NCBI GenBank assembly: GCA_029891345.1
Contig: CM057000.1
Coordinates: forward strand, 138,492,663 to 138,556,662
DNA: 64,000 bases
Source of the DNA: Dryococelus australis
Lineage: Eukaryota; Arthropoda; Insecta; Phasmatodea; Phasmatidae
Direction: 5' to 3'
The position numbers and the translations under genes are program-made. Below the pieces are notes generated by a model. That model was not told the origin of the DNA. It ran no database searches and saw nothing but the letters and a program-made list of their open reading frames with translations. Positions 11,670 through 63,173 of this stretch are shown piece by piece; position 1 is the first letter of the stretch, and the number at the start of each line of letters is the position of its first letter.

Positions 11670-11979
11670 CACTCTAAATTCGAATCAGTAGGAAACCACT
11701 GATTCGCAGTGAAATTCAGCTACTCGAATCAGTGAAAATGGCTCCACTAGAATTAGTGAAAAAAATACTGATTGTTTCAGTGAAAGGGTGTTTAGTCACT
11801 TGAAATTATTTCATTGATTAAATAAGTGACGGCCGACTACTGTTTCGGGAATTAAATAATGTTTTTATTGGATGTAGCCAAATAATTACGTGAAATATAC
11901 ATATTTTCCGTAGTTTAATACTTATGTTGTGCAATTCACCGTAATTTCAAACAGTAAAAAAATTTTTCGGAGGTACCCA

Positions 11980-12024
11980 GGATTGAACTCACACACCGTT
12001 CGACTCTAGGCCGTTATCTTGCCA
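11980..12024 (-). other. tRNA-like module 2 of H element
   Basis: On the minus strand a box-A-like TGGCAAGATAACGG is followed about 34 bases later by a box-B-like GAGTTCAATCC, and then by a stem-like GGGTACC. It aligns with the module at 48229 of the J element, including the AAAAATGG that precedes box A. It does not fold into a complete tRNA by eye. Confidence 0.5.
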
Positions 12025-12134
12025 TTTTTGTATTTTGTCGATGTTGTAGTTGTGTTGAAGTGACGTTGTCGAGCTCGAGTTAGACAAACTTGCTGACAAT
12101 TTCTCGGTGCCCCAAGCGAACAGGGAAATCTGCC

Positions 12135-12210
12135 GCGGAGACACCAGGGCACGGCGAATCCACGACCCCTAGACTACAAGTCGGCAACTCTACCCCTGAG
12201 CTATGGGGGC
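12135..12210 (-). other. tRNA-Thr-like module 1 of H element
   Basis: Read on the minus strand: GCCCCCATAGCTCAGGGGTA, a canonical-looking acceptor and D-arm start with box A, then CTTGTAG as a candidate anticodon loop (TGT, threonine), then GTGGATTCGCC in the place of box B. The T-arm and acceptor 3' side are degraded, so it is not a working tRNA gene. The sequence after box B (GGCAGAT, then GCACCGAGAA) is shared with the J element. Confidence 0.5.
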
Positions 12211-12804
12211 AGGGATCTCGTGCGCTACCACGCCATGTTGAAATATTGAGGGGAAATATAGTTTGCCTCGAAATCGTAAAGTTTTAATTTCTATGCTCTT
12301 ACTTTTCGTTTTTGGTTGAATTGGTACCGTTAGGATTGTTAGAAAGATTAGTATAATTGAGTGCCATCTATTCATCACTGTTTAAAACATCAAACAGAGC
12401 GCTGTGACGATTACTTGAAAACGAAATGAAATATGTAAAAACGGAATGAAATGCTCTGTGTTCATAAAATGGCGTTTTGAAAGACCAAACACATTTTATA
12501 AAGTATTTTGTATTTGTTTTTATTAGTTTAATCATTGTTATTTCACTTGGTATACTTCGTTTAACTGCCATTTTTACAGGCTGTTTAACTGATCCTTTAG
12601 TCAAACATAAACCACTGAGTAAACAGTGAAAAAAAAATTAACCGATGAATCAGTGTAAAGTTTCACTGAATCAATAGGTGAAGGAAATGTGGCATTTTTT
12701 TCTTCGCTGTTTCATCAGTTAAATTACTGAAGTGACTGTTGAATCAGTCAGATACGTTTGACTGATTGAAACAGTTAAATTCTCACTGATTCAGATTTAT
12801 AGTG

Positions 12805-17960: not shown

Positions 17961-18530
17961 AAGTTTGTTCACAATAAAATGAGCTCTTTTGATATAAACC
18001 TTATAAAAAGTCACTGCTCCTAACTGCACATATATTAACTGGACCACCGAGTGACATTTACCCAGTGAATTTGTTAACGATGGATGGAAAGTAGTTCCAT
18101 AGAAAAAGGGTTATGTAACCATTTGTGATGGTATTTTTTTTTTTTTTTTGATGCAGCGAAGTGTAAAAATGAGCAGACATGTAAAATATTTACTTTCTTA
18201 TAATTGTAAAGTTTTACTTGACTAACGCACAACTTAAGTGATGAGGCCCATGGCAATGTTAATGTTACATAACGCGGAAGAATACACAACATGCATACAA
18301 GTAGATCTTAAGCAAGGGCCGACCTCCTGCGGCGCAGTCGGTTGATGCGCCCCCGATCTGGGGTGCGGGAGGCTCCGGGGTTCGGATCCCGGGCATGGCA
18401 CAGGCGCTACCCTAAGCTAGGATAAAAGTTAGTCTGCAAGACGTCCCCCACCAAGCCTTCGAGCAAAAAACCGGGGGACGTTAAAAAGCCCAGGCCTTTC
18501 AAAAGTGCTAATTTTACCGTGAAAAGCCTA
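17961..18530 (+). mobile_element. MITE family A copy split by a SINE
   Basis: Flanked by TA at 17959-17960 and 18531-18532. The left end AAGTTTGTTCACAATAAAAT and right end TTTTACCGTGAAAAGCCTA are the family A termini. The body follows the family up to GATCTTAAGCAAGGG, then about 174 bp of tRNA-headed sequence intervenes before CCTTTCAAAAGTGC resumes. Without the insert it is about 396 bp. Confidence 0.88.
18320..18493 (+). mobile_element. SINE F, tRNA-derived, inserted in a MITE
   Basis: The head carries box A (CGGCGCAGTCGGTTG, 18330-18344) and box B (GGTTCGGATCC, 18379-18389) at tRNA-like spacing, followed by a tRNA-unrelated body ending in a short A-rich stretch (TTAAAAAGCCC). These are the internal RNA polymerase III promoter elements of tRNA-derived SINEs. 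A relative with the same head and a similar CATGG body start lies on the minus strand at 28395. It interrupts an A-family MITE, so it inserted after that MITE. Confidence 0.8.
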
Positions 18531-21127: not shown

Positions 21128-21875
21128 CATTTTTGTATAGTCAAAAAAGATTTTTTTTTTTTTAGGCAAACCAAATTACTTGTTTGTATAGGGGCAATGA
21201 AATATTTTGTTGCTGAAACCGAATTATTTTGTTGCTCTCATTTGGTTGCCCCAAACTGTAAGATTTGGTTGGTGAAACTAAAGGTTTGTTTGGCTACGCG
21301 TACATTAAACTGTTTGGGCCGATGTAGAAAAAACGTTACCAGTTCGACCGAGTTTCAAACCGAGATCACCTGCGTCCGAGCGCTGCGCCTTAGTAATCTC
21401 AGCCCATGTGACAACTGATGACGCCGGAAAGCTTCTAAATAGATATACTGCAAATATTGGGCAGCGCGTGCAAATAAATATTCCAAGTTTTGCAGCTTTA
21501 CTTGTCAGTTTCTTGTTGCATTGTTTTATTAGTGTCCTTATACGATTGTTAACTAACAAACACGGTTACCATCCTAATTGTGACAAAAAAAATACAAACA
21601 AACTCTCGAGCTGTATTTTCGAACGAAGGCAGTCAAATGACTGGCCAAACAAATGTATACAGTTTATTCAACAAAACAGTTAGTTGACAGTCAAATATTT
21701 TTTTTGGCCCAACACAGAGATTTTGTTTATTCAAACAGATATTTTGTTAGACGAACAAAAGTGATATTGTTGCTTTTAAAATTTCGTTTGGTCAACTATA
21801 TATTTTGTCAAGGGCAACTAAGTATATATATTTCGCCCTATGTAAACAAATATTTTGTTCGATTTTCTCTCAGTG
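21128..21875 (-). mobile_element. D element nested in a C element
   Basis: The right boundary is GATTTTCTCTCAGTG, the inverse of the family end CACTGAGAGAAAATC. The left end is shortened (CATTTTTGTATAG). CA lies on both sides, consistent with a 2-bp duplication of CA in the C target agCAggg. The interior matches the copies at 36665 and 42676 in reverse, including many AACAAA/TTTGTT motifs and the minus-strand tRNA-like module at 21350-21392. About 748 bp; no transposase. Confidence 0.85.
21350..21392 (-). other. tRNA-like module of D element (copy 1)
   Basis: On the minus strand TAAGGCGCAGCGCTCGG resembles box A and GGTTTGAAACTC resembles box B, about 30 bases apart. This spacing is shorter than in a real tRNA. 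The module is conserved in the D copies at 36665 and 42676. Confidence 0.5.
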
Positions 21876-21964
21876 CAGGGCTTTAGAAAAGTATGAAGTA
21901 ACCGCGAATGGGTTATATAGTTCCCAGTGTCTTGTCTATACTGCTTTGAAAGTTCAATAGCTTA

Positions 21965-22386
21965 AAGGCTGTTCACGGAAAAGTAAACACTTTCGAAATC
22001 AACCTTAGAAAAAAGTCACTGCCCCTGCCTACATATACTATAACGGGCGCAATGAGAGACATACGCGCATCAAAGTTGGTAACGATGGATGGAAAATAGT
22101 TCCATATCTTAATGTAAAATTAAAAGTATTAGGTAACAATGCCTTACAGCTTAAATTATTTATTTCTCTTTGTAATTTTTTTTAACTAGTCTAAGTTTAA
22201 TTAAGGGCACATTTGTGAAATTTTTATTTTCTAATAATTTCACAGTTTCACTTGACCGGCGCACGAATAAAGTAATGATGCCCGTGACAGTGTTAATTTT
22301 ACATAAGGCGGAAGACTACACAACGTGCATACAAGCAGATCTCAAGCAGGGCTTTCAAAGCTGCTATTTTTACCGTGAACAGCCTT
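21965..22386 (+). mobile_element. MITE family A, complete copy
   Basis: A 422-bp copy between TA dinucleotides at 21963-21964 and 22387-22388. The ends AAGGCTGTTCACGGAAAAGT and the inverted TTTTTACCGTGAACAGCCTT are among the best preserved in the window, so this copy is a good reference for the family. A 136-codon frame crossing its right half is a by-product. Confidence 0.92.
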
Positions 22387-22760
22387 TAGTTGTTTATAGG
22401 GGCAGTTTCCGAATTTTCCTCTTCTTTATTTTTGAAGTACATAAACTAAGAATTCAAAGTGGCGGAGGAAGGTTCCCTCTGAAGCCGGCTCCTCAGCGTG
22501 GACACGTGTATAGTGTTGATATCCACGGGACGGTGGCCAAAGCCGTAAATTTCCGAGAGATCACAGCGAGCGGGATCGCTCGCCGCGATGGGGCCAGACC
22601 TGCGGGATTACGGGGTCTCGGGTAGAAACGGTTGGCCGGGGGATTCGGGCAGGAGAGAGGGAGGGAGGTTGGAAGACTCGTGTATCCCGCAGCGAGGGTC
22701 CCGCAATCGATATCCGACCGCACACACCTGCTCGCGTAGAGGCGTGGTCCCGCCACGGTA
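22387..22760. other. GC-rich, CpG-containing island
   Basis: The block from about 22455 to 22760 is rich in CG (gcgagcgggatcgctcgccgcg near 22567, which also forms a perfect 7-bp hairpin). Frames on both strands reach 87 codons without a recognised motif. It could be a promoter or untranslated exon, but nothing in the sequence proves transcription. Confidence 0.3.
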
Positions 22761-23969: not shown

Positions 23970-24222
23970 TGGAGAGCGGAGAAATTTGATAGGCTATTCA
24001 CATCGAGGTCTTGAGAGCCTATGAGGGTTACTTGAGGTGAGTGTGAAGCAGCGCCGGAATGGGGTGGGCGAAGGAAGCGGGGCAGCTCGGAGTAGACCCG
24101 CCCACCAATGCCATCGTCTGGCCAGGTTCCCACGTGCGATAATCCGGGAGCGGCCCCGCCAGGAATCGAACCCGGTTCGCCTTGGCGAGTGATGTAGCCT
24201 CCACACCACCGTGGCCCCCTGC
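23970..24222 (-). mobile_element. SINE E, tRNA-derived
   Basis: The tRNA-like head is on the minus strand at the right end: ccacggtggtgtggaggct as the box A region, then GGCGAACCGGGTTCGATTCC containing box B. The body carries the family landmarks cagcgccggaatg and cgaggtcttgagagcc at the far end. The landmarks are shared with seven other copies in the window. Confidence 0.85.
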
Positions 24223-24619
24223 GACTTTGTATGGCTGTGCGTATATTACAGTTTCGATATTTGCAAAAAAAAAAAAAAAGGAGATGAATAAAACGGTCCG
24301 ACGTTCGAGCCCGGAGCACTTACGCCCAAACTTCACGGCTTGGCGACCTTCATCACTGCGGTTATTTAACTTTCAATTTATTTTCTTTCTGTCATACGTT
24401 ATCTAATGAAAAACCTTTGGGTAAACTATTCCCAGTTTTACAGCTCTGTGTTTTTACTTCCTGTAGAAATAGTTCCATTATTGAACTATTTGCGCTTTAT
24501 AAATCATCATTAATACACTATTATTATCCTAACTAGCTAGACCTGTGCACCCGAACGAACAAAGTGAAATATCCCGATTATTCGACAGCCAACTAAATCA
24601 ATACCGGTACTAGACTATG

Positions 24620-25460
24620 CTGATTTTATTTATGCCCCAGATTATGTATAGTTTGATATATCAGGTATTTTATTTATGCCCCAGATTGTGTCTAACTAGA
24701 TATATCAGGTATTTTATTTATGCCCCAGATTATGTATAGCTTGATATATCAGGTATTTTATTTATGCCCCAGATTGTGTCTAACTGGATATATCAGGTAT
24801 TTTATTTATGCCCCAGATTGTGTCTAACTAGATATATCAGGTATTTTATTTATGCCCCAGATTATGTATAGCTTGATATATCAGGTATTTTATTTATGCC
24901 CCAGATTATGTCTAACTAGATATATCAGGTATTTTATTTATGCCCCAGATTGTGTCTAACTAGCTATATCAGGTATTTTATTTATGCCCCAGATTATGTC
25001 TAACTAGATATATCAGGTATTTTATTTATGCCCCAGATTATGTATAGCTTGATATATCAGGTATTTTATTTATGCCCCAGATTGTGTCTAACTAGATATA
25101 TCAGGTATTTTATTTATGCCCCAGCTTATGTATAGCTTGATATATCAGGTATTTTATTTATGCCCCAGATTGTGTCTAACTAGATATATCAGGTATTTTA
25201 TTTATGCCCCAGATTGTGTCTAACTAGATATATCAGGTATTTTATTTATGCCCCAGATTATGTATAGCTTGATAGATCAGGTATTTTATTTATGCCCCAG
25301 ATTGTGTCTAACTAGATATATCAGGTATTTTATTTATGCCCCAGATTATGTCTAACTAGATATATCAGGTATTTTATTTATGCCCCAGATTGTGTCTAAC
25401 TAGATACATCAGGTATTTTATTTATGCCCCAGATTATGTATAACTAGATATATCAGGTTT
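24620..25460. repeat. 44-bp satellite array, 19 units, with higher-order pattern
   Basis: The unit reads tatcaggtattttatttatg followed by CCCCAGAT and a variable tail. Units start at exact 44-bp steps (gcccc at 24635, 24679, 24723 and so on). Two main tails alternate: A (tATGTATAGCTTGA) and B (tGTGTCTAACTAGA), with an intermediate B' (ATGTCTAACTAGA). The order is A B A B B A B' B B' A B A B B A B B' B and a final hybrid unit. Units 1-9 and 10-18 therefore repeat almost the same series (9 x 44 = 396 bp). Confidence 0.95.
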
Positions 25461-25826
25461 ATTTTAAAGCTAATCACGTTCTTATTTACTCCGAACGAAA
25501 TGTTCCTATGACTGTATCTTGATATTTATAATGATTACTACTAATTCTGAACCGATTTGTTGAATGTACTTGTAAAATGGCTGTTCTTACTGTATACATA
25601 TGCATGATGTTGCGGCAAAGAAATAAATGCTCGGCTCAACAAATTACTTTTAACAGTTTATTTTTGTTGAAAACAACGAGTGCCAATGTTTGGAGCAAGA
25701 GCAAATTGGTTGAGTGGATAAAAAATTGTTCAAATTAATTAAATACTCTTTAAATCAATTGGATTTACATTTTAAATAGAATAATTTTATCAGTGTACAA
25801 GTTTTAAGATATTGTTTACCGAGAGA
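25461..25826. other. No recognisable feature
   Basis: AT-rich flank between the satellite array and a decayed D element. No frame or repeat match. Confidence 0.35.
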
Positions 25827-27125
25827 AAATTTGTTTCAGAAAACAAATGTATTTATTTGAAGAGGTCGTTATTTACACTAAACAATATTTTGCTCACTCG
25901 TCTAATATACTGTTGCTCCAAACCACTGCTTTCGTTCCTTTGAACCCAATAAATCATTTAGGCTATTGGTTGACCAGGGCTTCTTTTTTGGGTTGTTCTA
26001 ACACCACTCAAATGTATTCATTACTCAAAACAATTCTACGAGTGCGTTCAACAAATCGATCGTGTTGTCGCAACCGTTGTAAATGACTTGGCTGTGTAAA
26101 ATAAATATTTCGTTTGGGGTGAATAAGAATTTTGTTAGCTGTAAAAACTTGATATGTTTTACATTACTGAATTTGTTGCGGTCACAAAAATAGCTTGGTC
26201 TAGCTTCTACATTAATTCGGCGGACTGCAGAATAACCGGGTTATTTGCTCGAATTAACAGGTCAAGGGTTTGTTCACATTTTCTGTTACGATTAGTATAC
26301 CAGTGCTGGTTTGTGTATTTTCTTATACTTAATAATGGCACTGGCAGTAGCTATTAAACAATTTCAATTGAAAAAAATTCAAGAAGAAAGGTATAACATT
26401 TGGAAAAAATTTAATGCAAATATGCGAATAAAGGCTGTTCACGATAAAATGAACACATTTGAAATGAATCATAGAAAAATTTCACTGCCCTTAACGCATA
26501 TATTTTAATGGGCGCACTGAGTGACATTTTCTCAGTAAAGTTGGTAACGATGGATGGAAAATACTTCCGTATCTTAACGTCAAATAAAAAGTGTTAGGGA
26601 ATCATTTGTGATAACTTAAATTATTTCTTTCGCTTTCTGATTTTTAATGCATCGAAGTGTGAAAATGAGCAGATTTGTATAATATTTACTTTCCGAAAGA
26701 AAAAAAAAAATTCACAGTTTTATTTGACCGACGCATAAATAAAGTGACGAGGGCCATGGCAATGCTAATTTTACAAAAGGCGGAAGAATACATAACGTCC
26801 ATACGAGCAGATGTTAAGAAGGGCTTTCAAAAGTGCTCATTTTACCGTGAGCAGTCTATAGTCAGATATGATTGTTTTGTTGACAGTTTCCGCGGTGTGT
26901 TATGTATTCGGATTTCTGAACCGCTTCCAGATTACTTTACAACTAAAACTCCAATGTATGTACAGCAATACAACTTTTCTTGTTGTACCAACAAAAATCT
27001 CATTCTTGTGGCAAACAAAGAAAAAAGAAACATTGATTTTTTTTTTGCAACGAAATATTTAATTGCCCCCATACAAACAATTGATCTGATTGCGCCAAAC
27101 AAATTGTATTTAATTCATCGAAGTC
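25827..27125 (+). mobile_element. D element, decayed, split by an A MITE
   Basis: The left end CCGAGAGAAAATTTGTTTCA resembles the D end CACTGAGAGAAAATCG, followed by AACAAA-rich sequence. Near the right end caacgaaatatttaattgcc, then CCATACAAACAA and GCGCCAAACAAA, aligns with the last 100 bp of the D copy at 42676. Between these arms lies a complete A MITE at 26431. Large parts of the centre are unalignable by eye, so boundaries are approximate. Confidence 0.5.
26431..26858 (+). mobile_element. MITE family A, complete copy
   Basis: A 428-bp copy flanked by TA at 26429-26430 and 26859-26860. The ends are AAGGCTGTTCACGATAAAAT and the inverted TTTTACCGTGAGCAGTCTA. The internal gttggtaacgatggatggaa and GGCGGAAGAATACATAACG blocks match the family. 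A 164-codon frame from 26675, the longest in the window, begins in this element and runs into the D relic; it is not a gene. Confidence 0.9.
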
Positions 27126-31241: not shown

Positions 31242-31446
31242 GTGAGTGAAGAGATTCGGGTGGCTCTTAACAGCGAGGTCTTGAGAGCTGGTGAGAGCGA
31301 TTGAGGCGAGTATTGAGCAGCGCCGGAATGAAAGGACAGGGCATCGTCCGACACGATTCCCACATGCGAAAATCTGGGGGCGACCCCGCCGAGAATTGAA
31401 CCCAGTTCGCCTCGGTGACAGGCTGTAACATAACCACCGCTTTCTC
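31242..31446 (-). mobile_element. SINE E, shortened copy
   Basis: Family landmarks are present: gtggctcttaacagcgaggt, cagcgccggaatgaaagg, cgattcccacatgcg, and GAATTGAACCCAGTTCGCC, the inverse of box B. About 40 bp of the middle body present in the copy at 50955 is missing. The box A end is degraded. Confidence 0.85.
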
Positions 31447-36664: not shown

Positions 36665-37448
36665 CACTGAGAGAAAATCGAACAAAATATTTGTTCAGAT
36701 AGGGCCAAATATATATTTAGTTATCCTAACAAAATGTATTGTTAAGCAAACAAAATTTGAAAAGCAACAAAATTTGAAAAGCAACGAAAGTACTTTTGTT
36801 CGTCTAACGAAATACCTATTTGTATGAATAAACAAAATCTCTGTGTTGGGCAAAAAAAAAAATTAGACTGCCAACTAACTAAATATTTTGTTGAATGAAC
36901 TGTTTATATTGGTTTGGCCAGTCATTTGATCGCCTTCGATAGAAAATACAGCTCGAGAGTTTGTTTGTAGTTTTTGTGACAATTAGGATAGTAACCGTGT
37001 TTGTTATTGCATCTATTGATGCTTCAACGATCGTACAAACACATTAATAAAACAATGCAACAAGAAACTGACAAGTAAAGCTGTAAAACTTGAAATATTT
37101 GTTTGCACGCGTTGCCCAATATTTGCGGTATATTTATTTAAAAGCTTTCCAGCTTCATCAGTTGTCACATTAGCTGATAATACTATGGCGTAGCGCTCGG
37201 ACGCAGGTGAGCTAGGTTTGAAACTCGATCGAACTTGTAAAATCCTTTTATATCGGCCCAAACTGTTTAATGCACGTGCCAAACAAATCCTTAGTTGTAC
37301 CAACCCAATCTTGCAGTTTGGGGCAACCAAATGAGAGCAACAACATAATTTGGTCTCAGAAACAAAATGTTTCATTGCCCCTATACAAACAAATAATTTG
37401 GTTTGCCTGAAAAAATCTTGTTTGACTATACAAAACCTTTTCTCAGTG
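36665..37448 (+). mobile_element. D element, complete copy
   Basis: 784 bp from CACTGAGAGAAAATCGAACA to the inverse end ccttttctcagtg. TG precedes and follows the element, consistent with a 2-bp target duplication. The outer 200 bp on each side is crowded with AACAAA/TTTGTT motifs. The tRNA-like module lies at 37185-37226. It aligns end to end with the copy at 42676. A 120-codon minus-strand frame is incidental. CACTG ends and 2-bp duplications resemble CACTA-type elements. Confidence 0.88.
37185..37226 (+). other. tRNA-like module of D element (copy 3)
   Basis: ATGGCGTAGCGCTCGG fits box A well and AGGTTTGAAACTC fits box B, about 30 bases apart. TGTCACATTAGC lies about 20 bases upstream, as in the other D copies; the J element has a similar TGTCACAATAACG before its second module. 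Confidence 0.55.
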
Positions 37449-37941: not shown

Positions 37942-38596
37942 CAAAATGAAATCGTCCACAGCAAAGCCACTAATATGCACACTATAAAAATAAACATAAG
38001 AACAGTCACCGACTTGATTGCTGGGTTATTTTTAATTAATTTATAAATCAAATATTACAATTACAGACACGCATATTATACGACTTTCACTGAGACATCT
38101 AACATTGCTAAACATTATTAAAATATTCCAGGCTTCCTGGGAGGGGCATCAAAATAATTACATGTATAATATTACTTCCAGCTTGGTTTCTTGAAAAATA
38201 TGCTTCAAGCGTTACCACAAGAATAAAATACATTCATATCTCTTAGGACTGCATTTAATACAAAATAATGTCGCGCAAAATCTTAGAAACTACAGGACTT
38301 TACAATTACATATTTCCTGTAACTTTCCGAAACACGCTAGTATAAACATAAAAACGTGACATGTCACGGCGTACTGATTTGGTGTCGACGAACCAAGTCA
38401 AGTAAGCACCAATATTTTTTCCCCTTTCTAAGCGTACCTCATCTCCCCTTTCGCCACTATGACATTCTGTTTTTAATTACGGCGTGGCTTGTATGTTAGA
38501 CATAATTTACACACTGTTTCGTTATAATAAAATGTGCACTTGTTATAGTAACACTTTTGTGATTACGAAACTACATTTACTACTTGAGGAAAGGTA
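37942..38596. other. No recognisable feature
   Basis: AT-rich spacer without matched repeats or frames. Confidence 0.4.
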
Positions 38597-39029
38597 AAGG
38601 CTGTTTACGGTAATGTGAGAACTTTTGAAATCAACCTTACAAAAATTTCACTGCCCCTATCTGCAAAAATTTAATCGGGGAGTTTGACTGGCATGCACCC
38701 AATAAAGTTGGTAACGATGGGGGGAAAGTATTTCCGTGTAATAACGCTGAATTAAAATGGTTAGATATACATTTGAGAATACTGAAATTATTCCCCTGGT
38801 TTTCGGGTTTTTAAAATACATAGGCCTATAAATATAAGAATCATCAAATTGGTAAAACATTTATACGTTTGCAATAATTTCACAGGTTCCCTTTAACCGA
38901 TGCACGAATGAAGTGATCAGGCTAACGGAAAAATGTTAATAGCACATACGGTGGAAGAGTACACGATGTGCTTACAAGAATATCTCAAGCAGGGCTGTCA
39001 AAAGTGCTCAATATGCCGTGAATAGCCCG
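38597..39029 (+). mobile_element. MITE family A, complete copy
   Basis: A 433-bp copy flanked by TA at 38595-38596 and 39030-39031. The ends AAGGCTGTTTACGGTAATGT and the inverted ATATGCCGTGAATAGCCCG are recognisable though substituted. The inner gttggtaacgatgggggga and gcagggctgtcaaaagtgc blocks confirm the family. Confidence 0.87.
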
Positions 39030-40236
39030 TAGTTAAATGACCACTCTTGAGAAGTTTCACGTCACTCCTTCAGTAGAGGATAAATAACGTCACTCAAATA
39101 GCGCAGCTACGACCAACCCTGGCCGAAACAGCTCTTGAAGGACAGGTCGTTGCGGCAGGGGCGTACGCCCCGACGGGAAATTTTTTTTTTTTTCCACCCG
39201 CCCGGCAGCAGCAGGCCATCCCTCGCCGGCGGGCGACGAGTTTTGAAACTTGTTGGAAGCGGTGTGCACACCCCGGTTGTATTGATTGCACGCGAAGAGT
39301 TCAGTCGAACACTGCAGGGGTCATGCGCGCAGGGCATAGAGCTTCGGGGTTATCTAGCGTCCTATTCCATCCCCTAAACCCTTTTCCCACTACAGGCACC
39401 ACCCAAGACACCCTAAATATCTCCCAACCCTCCGACACACCCGTGGGCCTTACACACTGGCGGTGGGGGGGGGAGGATAGGGGTAGCAACCCCCGGATAC
39501 GGAGCCCGCCATTAATAAACCAATGATCCATAAAGCCGAGTGCGCCTACGTGCCCTGGGCCAGGTGCGCGATCAACATTTCACACAGATATTGCAGATGT
39601 ACCGCCGCCCCCCCCCCCCCTATCCGGTCGCCTCTTCCAAACCTTCACCCAACCCTTCACCCCCACCAACTCCCACCCCCCCGTACACACACACACACAT
39701 ACACACTTTCACCTCCGGAACGCCTTGAATCCCGAGAGTTCAGCTGGTCCTTTTCGTGGCACCACCTCGCACCCCATATCGCCGACGTACCACTAAAATG
39801 TGGCTCCCGCTGGGCTCCTGAGAATTTCATTACCACCCCACGTCCATTGGATGTCGGGGTGATTCGTCAGCTTGCATCGAGATACCGTTTACGTAAACCG
39901 GCGCGGTAGGAGATGCGGCCCTCTCTAACGAAAGCAGAGTAGCCATAAACGAAGTGGGGAAAATACTGGGGGGGGGGGGGGGGAGGAATAAATCGATCAA
40001 CAGATACCATTACATTTCAGTTTGAAGTAAAATCTTCATAAAAATGCAGGGTTATCCTGAACTCAAGTTGCAGACTTTGTGAGATGACGATTTATGGAAA
40101 AATGAAAGAAAACTTAACCCACGTGCTTATTAAGTGACAGAAACGCCTTTGAATATTGGCAAATGAAACAAATTTTTAACAGATTTTTACAAACTACATG
40201 AGATTAAATTTTAAAAAACTCGTGAATTGTGTCAGG
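39030..40236. other. GC-rich region with C, G and CA runs
   Basis: 39090-39900 is strongly GC-rich, with C-rich and G-rich homopolymers (13 C at 39608-39620; 16 G at 39968-39983) and a short CA microsatellite (39686-39710). A 128-codon plus frame (39523) is proline- and histidine-rich because of the C runs, so it is weak evidence for a gene. A CpG-type promoter or exon remains possible. Confidence 0.3.
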
Positions 40237-42675: not shown

Positions 42676-43435
42676 CACAGGGAGAGAAAATCGAACAGAA
42701 TTTTGGTTGTACAGGGCCAAATATATATTTAGTTGCCCTAACAAAATATATTGCTAAGAAAACAAATTTGAGAAGTAACAAAATTACTTTCGTACGTCTA
42801 ACAAAAAATATGTTTGAATAAATAAAAGCTCCGTTTCGGGCCAAAAAACTTAGACTGTCAACTAAATATTTTGTTGAATCAACTGTATAGATTTGTTTGG
42901 CCACTGATTTGACTGACTTCGTTTGAAAATAACAGCTCGAGAGTTTGTTTGTATTTTGTGTGACAATTAGGATAGTGACCGTGTTTGTTAGTGCACCTAT
43001 TGATGCTTAACTATTGTATATACACATTAATAAAACAAGGCAACAAGAATCTGGCAAGTAAAGCTGTAAAACTTGTAATATTTGTTTGCCCGAGTTACCC
43101 AATATTTGCAGTATATCTATTTGAAAGCTTTCCGGCGTCATCAGTTGTCACATTAGCTGAGATTATTAAAGCGTAGCGCTCGGATGCAGGTTATCTACGT
43201 CGGAAACTCGGTAGAACTTTTTTAATTCTTTTAATCAGCTCAAACTGTTTAATGTACGTGTAGCTAAACAGATGTTTAGTTGCACCAACCAAATCTTACA
43301 GTTTGTGGCAACCAAATGAGAACAACGAAATAACTTGGTTTCAGCGACAAAATATTTCATTGCCCCTATAAAAACAAATAATTTTGGTCCACCAAACAAA
43401 ACCTTGTTTGAGTCAACGAAACATTTTTCTCAGTG
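42676..43435 (+). mobile_element. D element, complete copy
   Basis: 760 bp from CACAGGGAGAGAAAATCGAA (one end base differs from CACTG) to the inverse end atttttctcagtg. The AACAAA-rich subterminal zones, the conserved centre and the tRNA-like module at 43168-43211 match the copy at 36665. The flanks (TT and CA) do not form a 2-bp duplication here. Confidence 0.87.
43168..43211 (+). other. tRNA-like module of D element (copy 4)
   Basis: AAAGCGTAGCGCTCGG corresponds to box A and TCGGAAACTCGG to a weakened box B, preceded by TGTCACATTAGC. Compared with the copy at 37185 the B box has decayed more than the A box. Confidence 0.45.
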
Positions 43436-46084: not shown

Positions 46085-46316
46085 TGCTGTTAAGAGATTT
46101 GAGCGGCTCTTAACATCGAGGTCTTGAGAGCTGATGATGGAGAAGCGAGCTGAGTATGGAGCAGCGCCGGAAATTCCCGAGAAAACCCGCCGGCCAGTGT
46201 CATCGTCCGGCAGGATTTCCAAAAGCTTAAATCCGTGATCTACCCAGCCAGGAATCGTACCCGGTTCGCCGTGTGGGAAGCGAGTAGTACTAACCACTAC
46301 ACCACCACGACCCTGG
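46085..46316 (-). mobile_element. SINE E, nearly full copy
   Basis: Starts at the tail side with gagatttgagcggctcttaa and catcgaggtcttgagagc, then cagcgccgg, and ends with GGAATCGTACCCGGTTCGCC (inverse box B) and actaaccactacaccacca (inverse box A). A block after cagcgccgg is shortened relative to the copy at 50955. Confidence 0.88.
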
Positions 46317-46544
46317 CAATCATCATGCTTGTGGTTGAAAATGAGCAATAATATGTTTTGAACCAACACAAAAATTATTCTATACTTAAGACTAATGTAT
46401 TTCTGAAACAAATCTATTACTCTCTAATAAGATGGGTGAGTATCTTCAGAATAAATTGTTAGTACAGAAATGTAATGTTGTTCCAAAACGAGTTTGATCC
46501 CCTTCTGAAGACTGACAGGTAACAAGAAAATATACCTTACTGTT
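46317..46544. other. No recognisable feature
   Basis: Short AT-rich spacer between the SINE and the 24-bp minisatellite. Confidence 0.35.
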
Positions 46545-46891
46545 GGCATTACTATTGTTGTTCTGCCACAACTTAGCATTGTTGTTCTGCCACAACTTAG
46601 TATTGTTGTTCTGCCACAACTTAGTATTGTTGTTCTGCCACAACTTAATATTGTTGTTCTGCCACAACTTAGTATTGTTGTTCTGCCACAACTTAATATT
46701 GTTGTTCTGCCACAACTTAGTATTGTTGTTCTGCCACAACTTAGTATTGTTGTTCTGCCACAACTTAATATTGTTGTTCTGCCACAACTTAATATTGTTG
46801 TTCTGCCACAACTTAGTATTGTTGTTCTGCCACAACTTAGTATTGTTGTTCTGCCACAACTTAGTATTGTTGTTCTGCCACAACTTAGTAT
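46545..46891. repeat. 24-bp minisatellite, 14 copies, open on both strands
   Basis: The unit TTCTGCCACAACTTAGTATT plus GTTG repeats 14 times at exact 24-bp steps (46561, 46585 ... 46873). Variants are TTAGTATT, TTAATATT and TTAGCATT. Because 24 is a multiple of three, both strands stay open: (LLFCHNLV)n on plus and (NTKLWQNN)n on minus, giving frames of 136 and 154 codons. Neither has non-repeat sequence that looks like protein, so I call a minisatellite, not a gene. Confidence 0.95.
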
Positions 46892-47630
46892 TCAGTACTA
46901 CAACGTGCAATCGAAACTACGTATCATTACTCTTCTGCCATTTCTCCAACTGAAAGCTGAAGCTATTATTGAATGAACTACGAAGAACTCAGGTAATAAG
47001 ATAACTGAATTTAATAAAGTGGTTTGTACTTGATTAAAAATACTAATACCTGAAGGGGCCGATAATAGTCTGTGAAAGGAGTCTCAAAGTAATGATATGA
47101 AGATAGGTAATTCTGAAATAACAAGTAGGATTGTTCCTCAGTATAAGCCATAAATAACTACTTTGGCATTCATAACGATATTATTTTTCCTAACGTTAAC
47201 ACTAGTATATATACTTATTAAAATAATTTTACCTTTCCTGGTAATTTTTTCTATGCTTACGACTGGGTAGCTATAGTCTTGTGCAATACATTGCCGCTCT
47301 ACTCAAGCAGGCTGGTAATTTGCATCGGTATCAGACCTGCAGATAATACACGACATCATCGTAAAAGTAGTCAACGACCAGGTAGGACTACATGCTATCA
47401 TACAACGCAGCGTTGTTTACTCCCTCACATTTGCATATATTTGAATCGGGCGTGGCTCGACTTGGATGTGAAACTTTTCGTACGGTCTCGTGCCCGAGCT
47501 GGCGTCTCTATCAGTTGACGACTTAGGTAACAAGCCTGCACGCTATCTTCATGGGATCACTCGGCCGTAGATCGTCGATAGAAGTGCCCTAGCTTGTTCC
47601 GGCAGACCTGGGCCCCTCACGGAACCAACA
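46892..47630. other. No recognisable feature
   Basis: AT-rich spacer, becoming GC-richer after 47440. A 79-codon frame at 47279 has no recognised motif. Confidence 0.35.
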
Positions 47631-48069
47631 CACTGTTAAAAATTTTCGTATATTTACTGAACGTTTTACGGAAATGTACGGTGGACATGCGGAAAGGCAA
47701 TCCACATAGACGAAAAACGGAATTAAGTCCGTAAATACGAAATACGGAGAGTCTCCGTATTCCCTTTGGCTTCGAGTTACGGGGACGAACAATGTCGGTT
47801 CTACACGAAGCTTTCTTCGCCACTGTAACAAGAAAATTATCGTTTCTGCGGTAATTAAGGTTATCCACGCGACAATTACCTATTCTTTCAAACATTAAAA
47901 AATAGCACCAGGCGTCTGTAACATTTGGCAACACTAAATTTAATAAAAAATGAATTTTGGCTCTTGTCTTTCCAATATAAATATAAATGTTATACCACAA
48001 TTCCCAAGTGAGAGTTGTAGGTGAATAGCAAAGTGACAGTTGTAGGTGAAAGATAAAGCCCTGCTCTCA

Positions 48070-48103
48070 TAGCTGTAGCCGAAGGGTAGCGGGTTCGCGT
48101 CCC
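48070..48103 (+). other. tRNA-like module 1 of J element
   Basis: TAGCTGTAGCC and GGGTTCGCGTCCC resemble boxes A and B but are only about 21 bases apart, so the anticodon arm is lost or compressed. The 3' side (CGGTGCCTCCGACGTGGCAG) aligns with the H element module at 12135-12210. Confidence 0.45.
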
Positions 48104-48228
48104 GGTGCCTCCGACGTGGCAGATGCTCAGCTCGATTGTCGCACTGGGAATTCGTCAACAAGTCGGTCTCACTAGAGCCTCGTCAACGTCAAAATGTCAC
48201 AATAACGTCAAATGAAGGTTTAAAAAAA

Positions 48229-48274
48229 TGGTTAGTGTCGTGAGCTGAAACCTTTTTGACTCGGGTTCAAACCT
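48229..48274 (+). other. tRNA-like module 2 of J element
   Basis: TGGTTAGTGTCG as a box-A-like start and GGTTCAAACCT as a box-B-like end lie about 35 bases apart, the same spacing as module 2 of the H element. The sequence before it (TGTCACAATAACG) resembles the D-element sequence before its module. Confidence 0.5.
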
Positions 48275-48555
48275 CGCTTAAGTACAAAATATTTTAATAT
48301 TTTTAATATCATTTTTATACACGGTAGACCACCCACAAAACGAAAATTAAAGATACGTTCATCACCTCTTTTTATTTTACAGGAAAAGTACAGAAAACTA
48401 ACTTGGAAATTAACGGAGAGGTTCCATGAAATTCACGGAAAGTCCGTTTCTGAAAAATCAATGCGTCCGTAATTTCATGGGGAGTTTACGGACAACTCTG
48501 GATACACTTTTACCAGCACTTTTCCGTAAAACGAAAGGAAATTTATTTAGCAGTG

Positions 48556-50954: not shown

Positions 50955-51206
50955 AGTGAATGAAGAGATTTGGACGGCTCTTAACATCGTGGTCTTTGGA
51001 GCCGACTGGGGTGAACGAGGTGAGTATGGAGCAGCGCCGGAATGAAAGGGCGGGGGAAACGGTAGATCCCCGAGAAAACCCGCCGACCAACAGTATCGTC
51101 CAGCAATATTCCCACATACCAAAATCCGGAGTGACCCGGCCGGGCATAATGCCGGATCACCTTGGTGGGAGGTGAGCAGGCTAACCGCTAAGCTACCGTG
51201 GCCCCT
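50955..51206 (-). mobile_element. SINE E, full minus-strand copy
   Basis: Complete order of family blocks: ggctcttaacatcgtggtct, gtgagtatggagcagcgccg, gaaagggcgggggaaacggt, ccccgagaaaacccgccgac, cggagtgacccggccgggc, and a degraded box B (inverse in ATAATGCCGGATCACC), then the inverse box A (gctaaccgctaagctaccg). Confidence 0.92.
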
Positions 51207-62909: not shown

Positions 62910-63173
62910 AGTGAGCGAAGAGATTTGGGCTGCTCTGAACAGCGAAGTCTTGAGAGCCGATGGGGGAGCTTGAGGGGGTATTGAGCAGCGTCGGAACGAA
63001 GGGGCGGGGAAAAGAAAACTGGAGATCCCAAAGAAAACCCGGCCGACCAACGGCAATGTCCGGTACGATTCCCACATGCAGAAATCTGGGAATGACCCGG
63101 CCGGGGATTGAACCCGGTTCCCCTTGGTGACGGTAGGGGGGCGAGCAGGCTAACCGCTTAGTCACCGCGGCGC
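62910..63173 (-). mobile_element. SINE E, full minus-strand copy
   Basis: Blocks in family order: gagatttgggctgctctgaa, gcgaagtcttgagagccgat, gagcagcgtcggaacg, aaaacccggccgaccaacgg, then GGGATTGAACCCGGTTCCCC (inverse box B) and gctaaccgcttagtcaccgc (inverse box A). Confidence 0.9.

Follow-up and report, generated by a model that had tools for sequence, protein, structure and literature searches.

According to passages in PMC4640811, LINEs specific for a single kind of tRNA include NeSL-1_TV (tRNA-Pro), LIN15_SM (tRNA-Arg), and LIN25_SM (tRNA-Glu). The SINE described here is, like them, a retroelement specific for tRNA gene sequences. It differs from what those passages describe in that a SINE and a second element, rather than LINEs with one tRNA each, occupy many unrelated tRNA-like sites, and the insect targets are mostly pseudo-sites in other repeats, unlike those of the tRNA-gene LINEs. 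Many kinds of Pol III unit are chosen by TRE5 and TRE3 in Dictyostelium and by Ty1 and Ty3 in yeast, and TRE5-A targeting is lost when box B is mutated so as to impair TFIIIC binding (PMC5911963). The same paper places Ty and TRE insertions outside the gene, 40–54 bp upstream for TRE5, whereas the SINE here is inserted within box A or adjacent to it. R2, whose target is the 28S rRNA genes, is described in parts of PMC5035012 as making a strictly placed bottom-strand cut and a variable top-strand cut. As far as that description goes, this pattern of one fixed and one variable cut matches the SINE junctions found in the transposon J (below). R2 encodes its own enzymes, and in this and in its 28S rRNA target it differs from the present case.

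Two further systems involve mobile elements of different classes combined in one unit. The MITE MER6 with its V-SINE spread as a composite after SINE insertion, according to excerpts of PMC6887750; MER6 and J both have a SINE inside a non-autonomous DNA transposon, but the MER6 of those excerpts is a spreading composite, whereas J was struck at one site by many independent insertions. Helenus TRIMs are LTR elements with a tRNA-derived sequence and conserved boxes A and B, as portions of PMC10886601 relate. The residence of tRNA-derived sequence in another class of mobile element is common to Helenus and to the transposons H, J, and D studied here, which differ from Helenus as portrayed there by their CACT inverted ends and, for J and D, by boxes no better conserved than their neighbors. 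Searches of an open-access library listed no paper on a SINE inserting into tRNA-like sequences, and we take the SINE here as a variant of target-specific retroelements.

Here we describe a 64,000-nucleotide stretch of Dryococelus australis DNA (the window) and related copies elsewhere in the genome. The arrangement very probably has two layers, namely, CACT transposons that bear tRNA-like modules and a SINE copied into tRNA-like sites by LINE-type machinery. If this is true, an animal (insect) SINE joins the short list of retroelements aimed at Pol III units, and its many degenerate targets would allow the needs of integration (box A, box B, and their spacing) to be read from sequence alone.

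CACT-Ended Transposons H, J, and D

The features of the three transposons in the window are listed below.

47631–48555, plus strand: J transposon, ends CACTGTT..AGCAGTG, flanks CA/CA; this copy with SINE insert
48006–48057, plus strand: 5′ half of the J module, AAGTGAG..GTAGGTGAA, in part duplicated in this copy
48058–48228, plus strand: SINE in box A of the J module, its tRNA-like head internally deleted
48118–48219 and 48222–48228, plus strand: domain and A-tail, respectively, of the J-inserted SINE
48229–48279, plus strand: 3′ half of the J module, box B GGGTTCAAACC at 48263–48273
11670–12804, minus strand: H transposon, CACT-ended, with SINE (module and SINE both in minus-strand orientation)
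12216–12240, minus strand: 5′ half of the H module, TGGCGTGGTAGCGCACGAGA
12025–12215, minus strand: SINE in box A of the H module
11969–12024, minus strand: 3′ half of the H module, box B GAGTTCAATCC at 11980–11990
36665–37448, plus strand: D copy, CACT/AGTG ends, TG/TG flanks, without SINE
37161–37237, plus strand: D tRNA-like module, uninterrupted, box B-like GGTTTGAAACT at 37215–37225
42678–43435, plus strand: D copy, 5′ end eroded and reading CACAGGG from 42676, CA/CA flanks, without SINE
21128–21875, minus strand: D copy, one end eroded, CA/CA flanks, without SINE

The CACT ends and matching 2-bp flanks that the original prediction assigned to J and H were confirmed (CA/CA and TA/TA, respectively). 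Three D copies had also been said to begin with CACT; this holds for the copy at 36665 and not for those at 42676 (CACAGGG) and 21128 (CATTTTTG, after CA), both of which are eroded. On the plus strand, H extends from CACTCTAAAT to ATTTATAGTG, and two other copies (L002 and L007) aligned over the whole H element, stopping at CACTCTAAAT and ATTTAGAGTG. A search with the J core returned 29 further loci, 21 aligned across the whole element and 8 in part; the 21 whole alignments ended within ~20 bases of the element termini, most of them within 7. The majority consensus of 20 J copies is 733 bp long and lacks the SINE. Both CACTG and CAGTG were kept in 21 of 50 J loci examined, and the 2-bp flanks were identical in 18 of these 21 (mean 4.4 and maximum 11 in 1,000 permutations), with TA, CA, TG, CG, AG, and AA all represented; a 3-bp flank match was seen in none of the 21. 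CACTA/EnSpm elements are defined by CACT.. termini and a target duplication of 2–3 bp. J has both features, the duplication being of 2 bp (18/21) and not of 3 bp (0/21).

The ends of H and J are short imperfect inverted repeats, and neither has the long terminal repeats of a Helenus-like LTR element. Comparison of H and J outer parts gave no convincing similarity (best match 17 bp, E 0.008–0.02), in keeping with the earlier view that the two align across the core and have unrelated subterminal parts, and sequence comparison of H, J, and D outside the core, self-comparison included, likewise gave no convincing likeness. H, J, and D are apparently non-autonomous, CACT-ended DNA transposon families with unrelated outer parts. 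The CACTA transposase profile PF02992 had 0 matches in the genome, but it also had none in any of 14 control genomes. First-look candidates numbered 1,800 for the J outer part, 2,449 for the D outer part, and 5,437 for the H target, the best 40 being scored in each case, and these figures give only an indication of copy number.

Resident tRNA-Like Modules

The tRNA-like segments predicted inside H, J, and D are present. Going by its box A-like and box B-like motifs, each family contains one resident tRNA-like module, and the three modules are different sequences. By eye, a T-run of 6–7 lies within about 5–25 bp after each module in this AT-rich DNA, a candidate Pol III terminator by its position. 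With such modules and T-runs in three unrelated DNA transposon families of one genome, Pol III transcription becomes a question. In the J module, AAGTGAG can pair with CTCGCTT in the manner of a tRNA acceptor stem, and by eye we take the D module to resemble tRNA-Leu. ARAGORN found the J module at a relaxed threshold of 70%, as it did 6 of 300 shuffles, and called no tRNA in the two D modules tested even at 70%; for 11 reconstructed sequences it made no call at default and seven at 70% (shuffles, 1–31 of 300). Since neither ARAGORN at defaults nor Rfam (curated, default, and E ≤ 10) detected a tRNA in the window, the modules are tRNA-like and not tRNA genes; calling by a default tRNA finder, expected of a functional tRNA gene, fails for them.

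Twenty J copies were picked by their left outer part (ranks 2–21 of 40 listed), which avoids choice by the module itself. The module was whole in 14, of which three were interrupted by an insert (the SINE in L133 and L136 and a second retroelement in L121); its 5′ half was partly or fully missing in four (L120, L128, L129, and L137), and it was nearly gone in two, with most missing in L130 and other sequence in its place in L138. The SINE was present in 2 of these 20 copies. Among 20 D copies picked by outer part in the same way, the module was free of large gaps in 14, internally deleted in five (L158, L160, L162, L164, and L166), and absent from L169. Module sequence therefore extends beyond the few copies in the window, having been found in 18/20 J and 19/20 D copies. 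The proposed sign of function, boxes better conserved than their surroundings, did not appear. In J, the consensus match was 0.926 for box A, 0.894 for box B, and 0.892 for the whole module, compared with 0.919–0.935 for the neighbors, and in D (23 rows) there was no difference between inside (0.80–0.92) and outside the module (0.77–0.92), so the boxes give no sign of selection within J or D. As a separate observation, six of the 20 J copies have deletions of >15 bp relative to the consensus (L120, L126, L128, L129, L130, and L137), and five of these six deletions affect the tRNA-like module, lying at it or extending into it.

The SINE and Its Empty Sites

The core common to H and J is a repeat of ~190 bp with a tRNA-like head, a central domain, and an A-rich tail. 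Box A and box B are recognizable by eye in the head of most copies (CATAGCTCAGGGGTAGGG..GGGTTCGCGCCCC), and the head as typed gave no ARAGORN call even at 70%. The domain follows the pattern GGCAGAT..GCACTGGGAATT.GTCA.CAAGTCGGT; searched as 27 positions (25 fixed bases) in 3.4 Gb of genome on 646 contigs, it occurred 464 times, and the reversed control 0 times. Some copies of the repeat, such as L006/L039, have neither H nor J sequence on their flanks. It has the A-rich tail, variable 5′ truncation, and target duplication of tRNA-derived SINEs, the duplications being short and variable.

When the SINE was removed from the J query, all 40 matches scored (best 40 of 3,513 candidates) were single and uninterrupted at 90–95%; the corresponding H query gave 40/40 uninterrupted at 86–90% (best 40 of 5,437 candidates). 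Because ranking by best score favors uninterrupted copies, these counts prove that empty sites exist and do not measure their share. The H/J core is, as read from these alignments, a younger tRNA-headed SINE inside box A of the resident module. The two modules formerly seen in each of H and J are accounted for in this way, the SINE head having been taken for the first and the 3′ half of the module that it interrupts for the second, and the AAAAATGG formerly placed before box A is the SINE A-tail joined to the D-loop TGG of the target. TGTCACA, said to be common to D and J, belongs to the SINE in the case of J and to the transposon itself in the case of D, so the likeness is probably a coincidence. 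Captured SINE heads had been offered as one of several options, and the inserted SINE head fits that option.

Two other arrangements of the SINE were seen. At C2:35623648-35624354, the domain pattern recurs six times, every 136 bp, as a satellite formed from a piece of the SINE, and one J element holds a head-to-head pair of SINE copies (L022).

Insertion Junctions in the J Target

Thirty-seven SINE copies were compared to the J target, 36 of them in J elements and one (L016) in H. Directly after the SINE tail stood TGG in 25/37 and a variant (e.g., ATTG or ATGA) in 8/37, and the 3′ junction lay elsewhere in the remaining four (L035, L037, L071, and L078). Relative to the start of ATGG, the end of the 5′ flank ranged from 12 nt before to 19 nt after, and extra bases were frequent; L016 and L031 (the latter with another insert in front) are not counted in this range. 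The SINE started at head position 0 in 15 copies, at 1–4 in 12, and further in in 10, which were truncated, deleted, or compound (e.g., the SINE pair L022). One more SINE in J (L175) lies beyond the 37, and a pattern search for other J-module insertions gave a single match, again the SINE. The SINE thus has what marks target-specific non-LTR elements, a fixed point of insertion in a particular multicopy sequence. Independent events at one site, via target-primed reverse transcription, would explain the near-constant 3′ junction together with the variable 5′ ends, which a single ancestral insertion does not explain. In L016, a J-type SINE followed by downstream J sequence and poly-A lies inside an H module; it is best read as a transcript that would have continued out of a J element into flanking sequence before being copied into H.

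Target Choice across Unrelated Sites

Target preference was assessed in 40 SINE copies sampled from 100 listed of the 464 exact-domain places. The sample comprised 20 T-type copies (19 on C1 and 1 on C2, with three already-known C1 places left out) and the first 20 new C-type copies on C1 (two A-type C1 places left out); all 40 match the 25-base domain exactly, and 39 are on one scaffold. A box B motif of at least 8/9 was found within 100 bp after the tail in 23/40, compared with a mean of 0.6 and a maximum of 3 in 200 shuffles, and 19 of these 23 were 35–46 bp downstream. At a threshold of at least 7/9, the count was 33/40 (shuffles, mean 6.8 and maximum 13), and in a next-flank control the two thresholds yielded 0/39 and 4/39, respectively. 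Box B was in the reverse orientation in 1/40. Just upstream of the SINE, a perfect TRGCNNAG was present in 8/40, against 0/40 in the outer flank and a mean of 0.5 (maximum 3) in shuffles. An earlier, score-ranked set gave a weaker signal, with box B of at least 8/9 in 8/30 (shuffle 0.7) and at least 7/9 in 20/30 (shuffle 7.2). The script that locates the tail found none in L071, L085, L086, L101, and L106 and set it in the wrong place in L080.

By eye, the target was tRNA-like in at least 35 of the 40 copies; the 3′ flank was not tRNA-like in L070 and L090, and L076, L082, and L085 were doubtful. About 17/40 targets were H, J, or D by eye (counting L070 as H), and the rest were other SINEs and repeats. 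After the two sides of each site were rejoined, ARAGORN at 80, 75, and 70% called 18, 25, and 31 of 40, respectively, and 0, 0, and 3 of 40 in the outer-flank control. When 5′ and 3′ halves were swapped between loci, the means were 18.7, 25.6, and 29.3, as many as for the true joins, so the calls point to tRNA-like flanks and not to a match between the two halves. TGG within 9 nt of the junction occurred in 23/54 unrelated targets (shuffles, mean 11.4 and maximum 21), which is a tendency only. Four pairs of loci (L109/L110, L112/L113, L114/L115, and L116/L117) represent further repeat families with a tRNA-like module and the same SINE. No CACT/AGTG was seen at the borders visible in these pairs, three of which show only the 3′ border.

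A Second Retroelement at the Same Sites

At the point in the J module used by the SINE, L121 has a different insert, ending ..AATAAAATTATTTATTTATTTT(A)n, and L031 has the same end. In 14 further copies of this second element, taken by 3′ flank (ranks 2–15 of 40), the 3′ flank was tRNA-like or a J module by eye in all 14, five of the copies being in J and another in H. In raw counts, box B scored at least 7/9 in 12/14 and at least 8/9 in 5/14. That two unrelated 3′ ends share one kind of target suggests shared, tRNA-specific LINE machinery. The second element itself was considered as the partner LINE; inspection by eye of translations of 1.2 kb upstream of two of its copies revealed no recognizable LINE coding sequence, and it may itself be a SINE.

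Proposed Mechanism and Alternative Explanations

Nested insertion, empty sites, target preference, orientation, and a near-constant 3′ junction with variable 5′ ends were all observed. In the mechanism we propose, a SINE that combines a tRNA-like head and a central domain of its own would be copied into tRNA-like sequences by target-primed reverse transcription, the first nick falling at the box A/D-loop region or immediately before it, often at RTGG. The SINE would take the orientation of its target and leave box B mostly 35–46 bp downstream, and its targets would be the CACT transposons together with other SINEs and additional repeats that contain tRNA sequence. The enzymes would come from a putative LINE with tRNA specificity, and recognition might involve either a protein that reads box A/box B DNA or tethering to TFIIIC/TFIIIB. 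A bolder extension, to which we give somewhat less than an even chance, is that the SINE/LINE system finds tRNA-like Pol III promoters whatever their source, inserts in box A, and so knocks out the promoters of competing SINEs and of tRNA-carrying DNA transposons, its own promoter arriving with it. If that is true, other Pol III elements are the prey of this mobile element, and the DNA transposons are spreading landing pads.

The original prediction favored a single DNA transposon lineage that retains Pol III-like heads in its core as its outer parts change, which now appears improbable. It draws on the fact that H, J, and D all combine CACT ends with a central tRNA-like module and then, by eye, a T-run, and on the presence of module sequence, whole or partial, in most J and D copies picked by outer sequence (18/20 and 19/20). 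However, the H/J core is removable and is absent from the best-matching copies, no common descent of the outer parts was seen, and modules kept by a lineage do not agree with boxes conserved no better than their neighbors or with large J deletions mostly at or beside the module. As to the common H/J core, this explanation is largely refuted, since the core is a SINE that arrived repeatedly and SINE-free copies exist. Most SINE copies are followed by a tRNA-like unit, as they would be if the core were a dimeric SINE with a second such unit at its 3′ end, but that unit varies by locus and runs on into the host repeat, its 5′ half often precedes the SINE, and SINE-free versions of it were found; a dimer is scarcely credible. 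It is the empty sites that led us to reject the dimeric SINE as well as the idea of a conserved core in the transposons.

The placement of insertions bears on two other explanations. The targets recognized so far are repeats or pseudo-tRNA, which would be expected if the SINE inserted widely and its copies survived or were assembled mainly in repeats, the tRNA context reflecting survival bias or ectopic exchange. Survival alone is insufficient, though, for insertions placed to within a few bases: in one target, the 5′ ends vary and are truncated and the 3′ junction stays near constant, and in unrelated targets the orientation is the same and the distance to box B mostly 35–46 bp. We regard this explanation as highly improbable. 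Concerning what is recognized, a short sequence preference (~RTGGYTARRG) could replace recognition of a tRNA-like unit, a refinement that would account for the frequent ATGG at J, H, and second-element junctions. It is rather unlikely, as the junction motif is loose in unrelated targets (23/54) whereas a downstream box B is common, and so short a motif would be expected far more often outside tRNA-like units.

Other Repeats in the Window

A further tRNA-like repeat family in the window has the box B GGTTCGATTCC on the minus strand, with copies at 24084–24216, 31340–31419, 46173–46278, 51066–51128, and 63026–63131, one of which has a weak mascRNA-like score. Near the D copies is a repeat family with inverted ends TTTACCGTGAACAGCC (1566–1990, 18005–18357, 21952–22391, 26418–26863, and 38584–39034). 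The window also contains tandem arrays at 24491–25626 (44-bp units), 46477–46980 (24 bp), and 531–1004 (79 bp).
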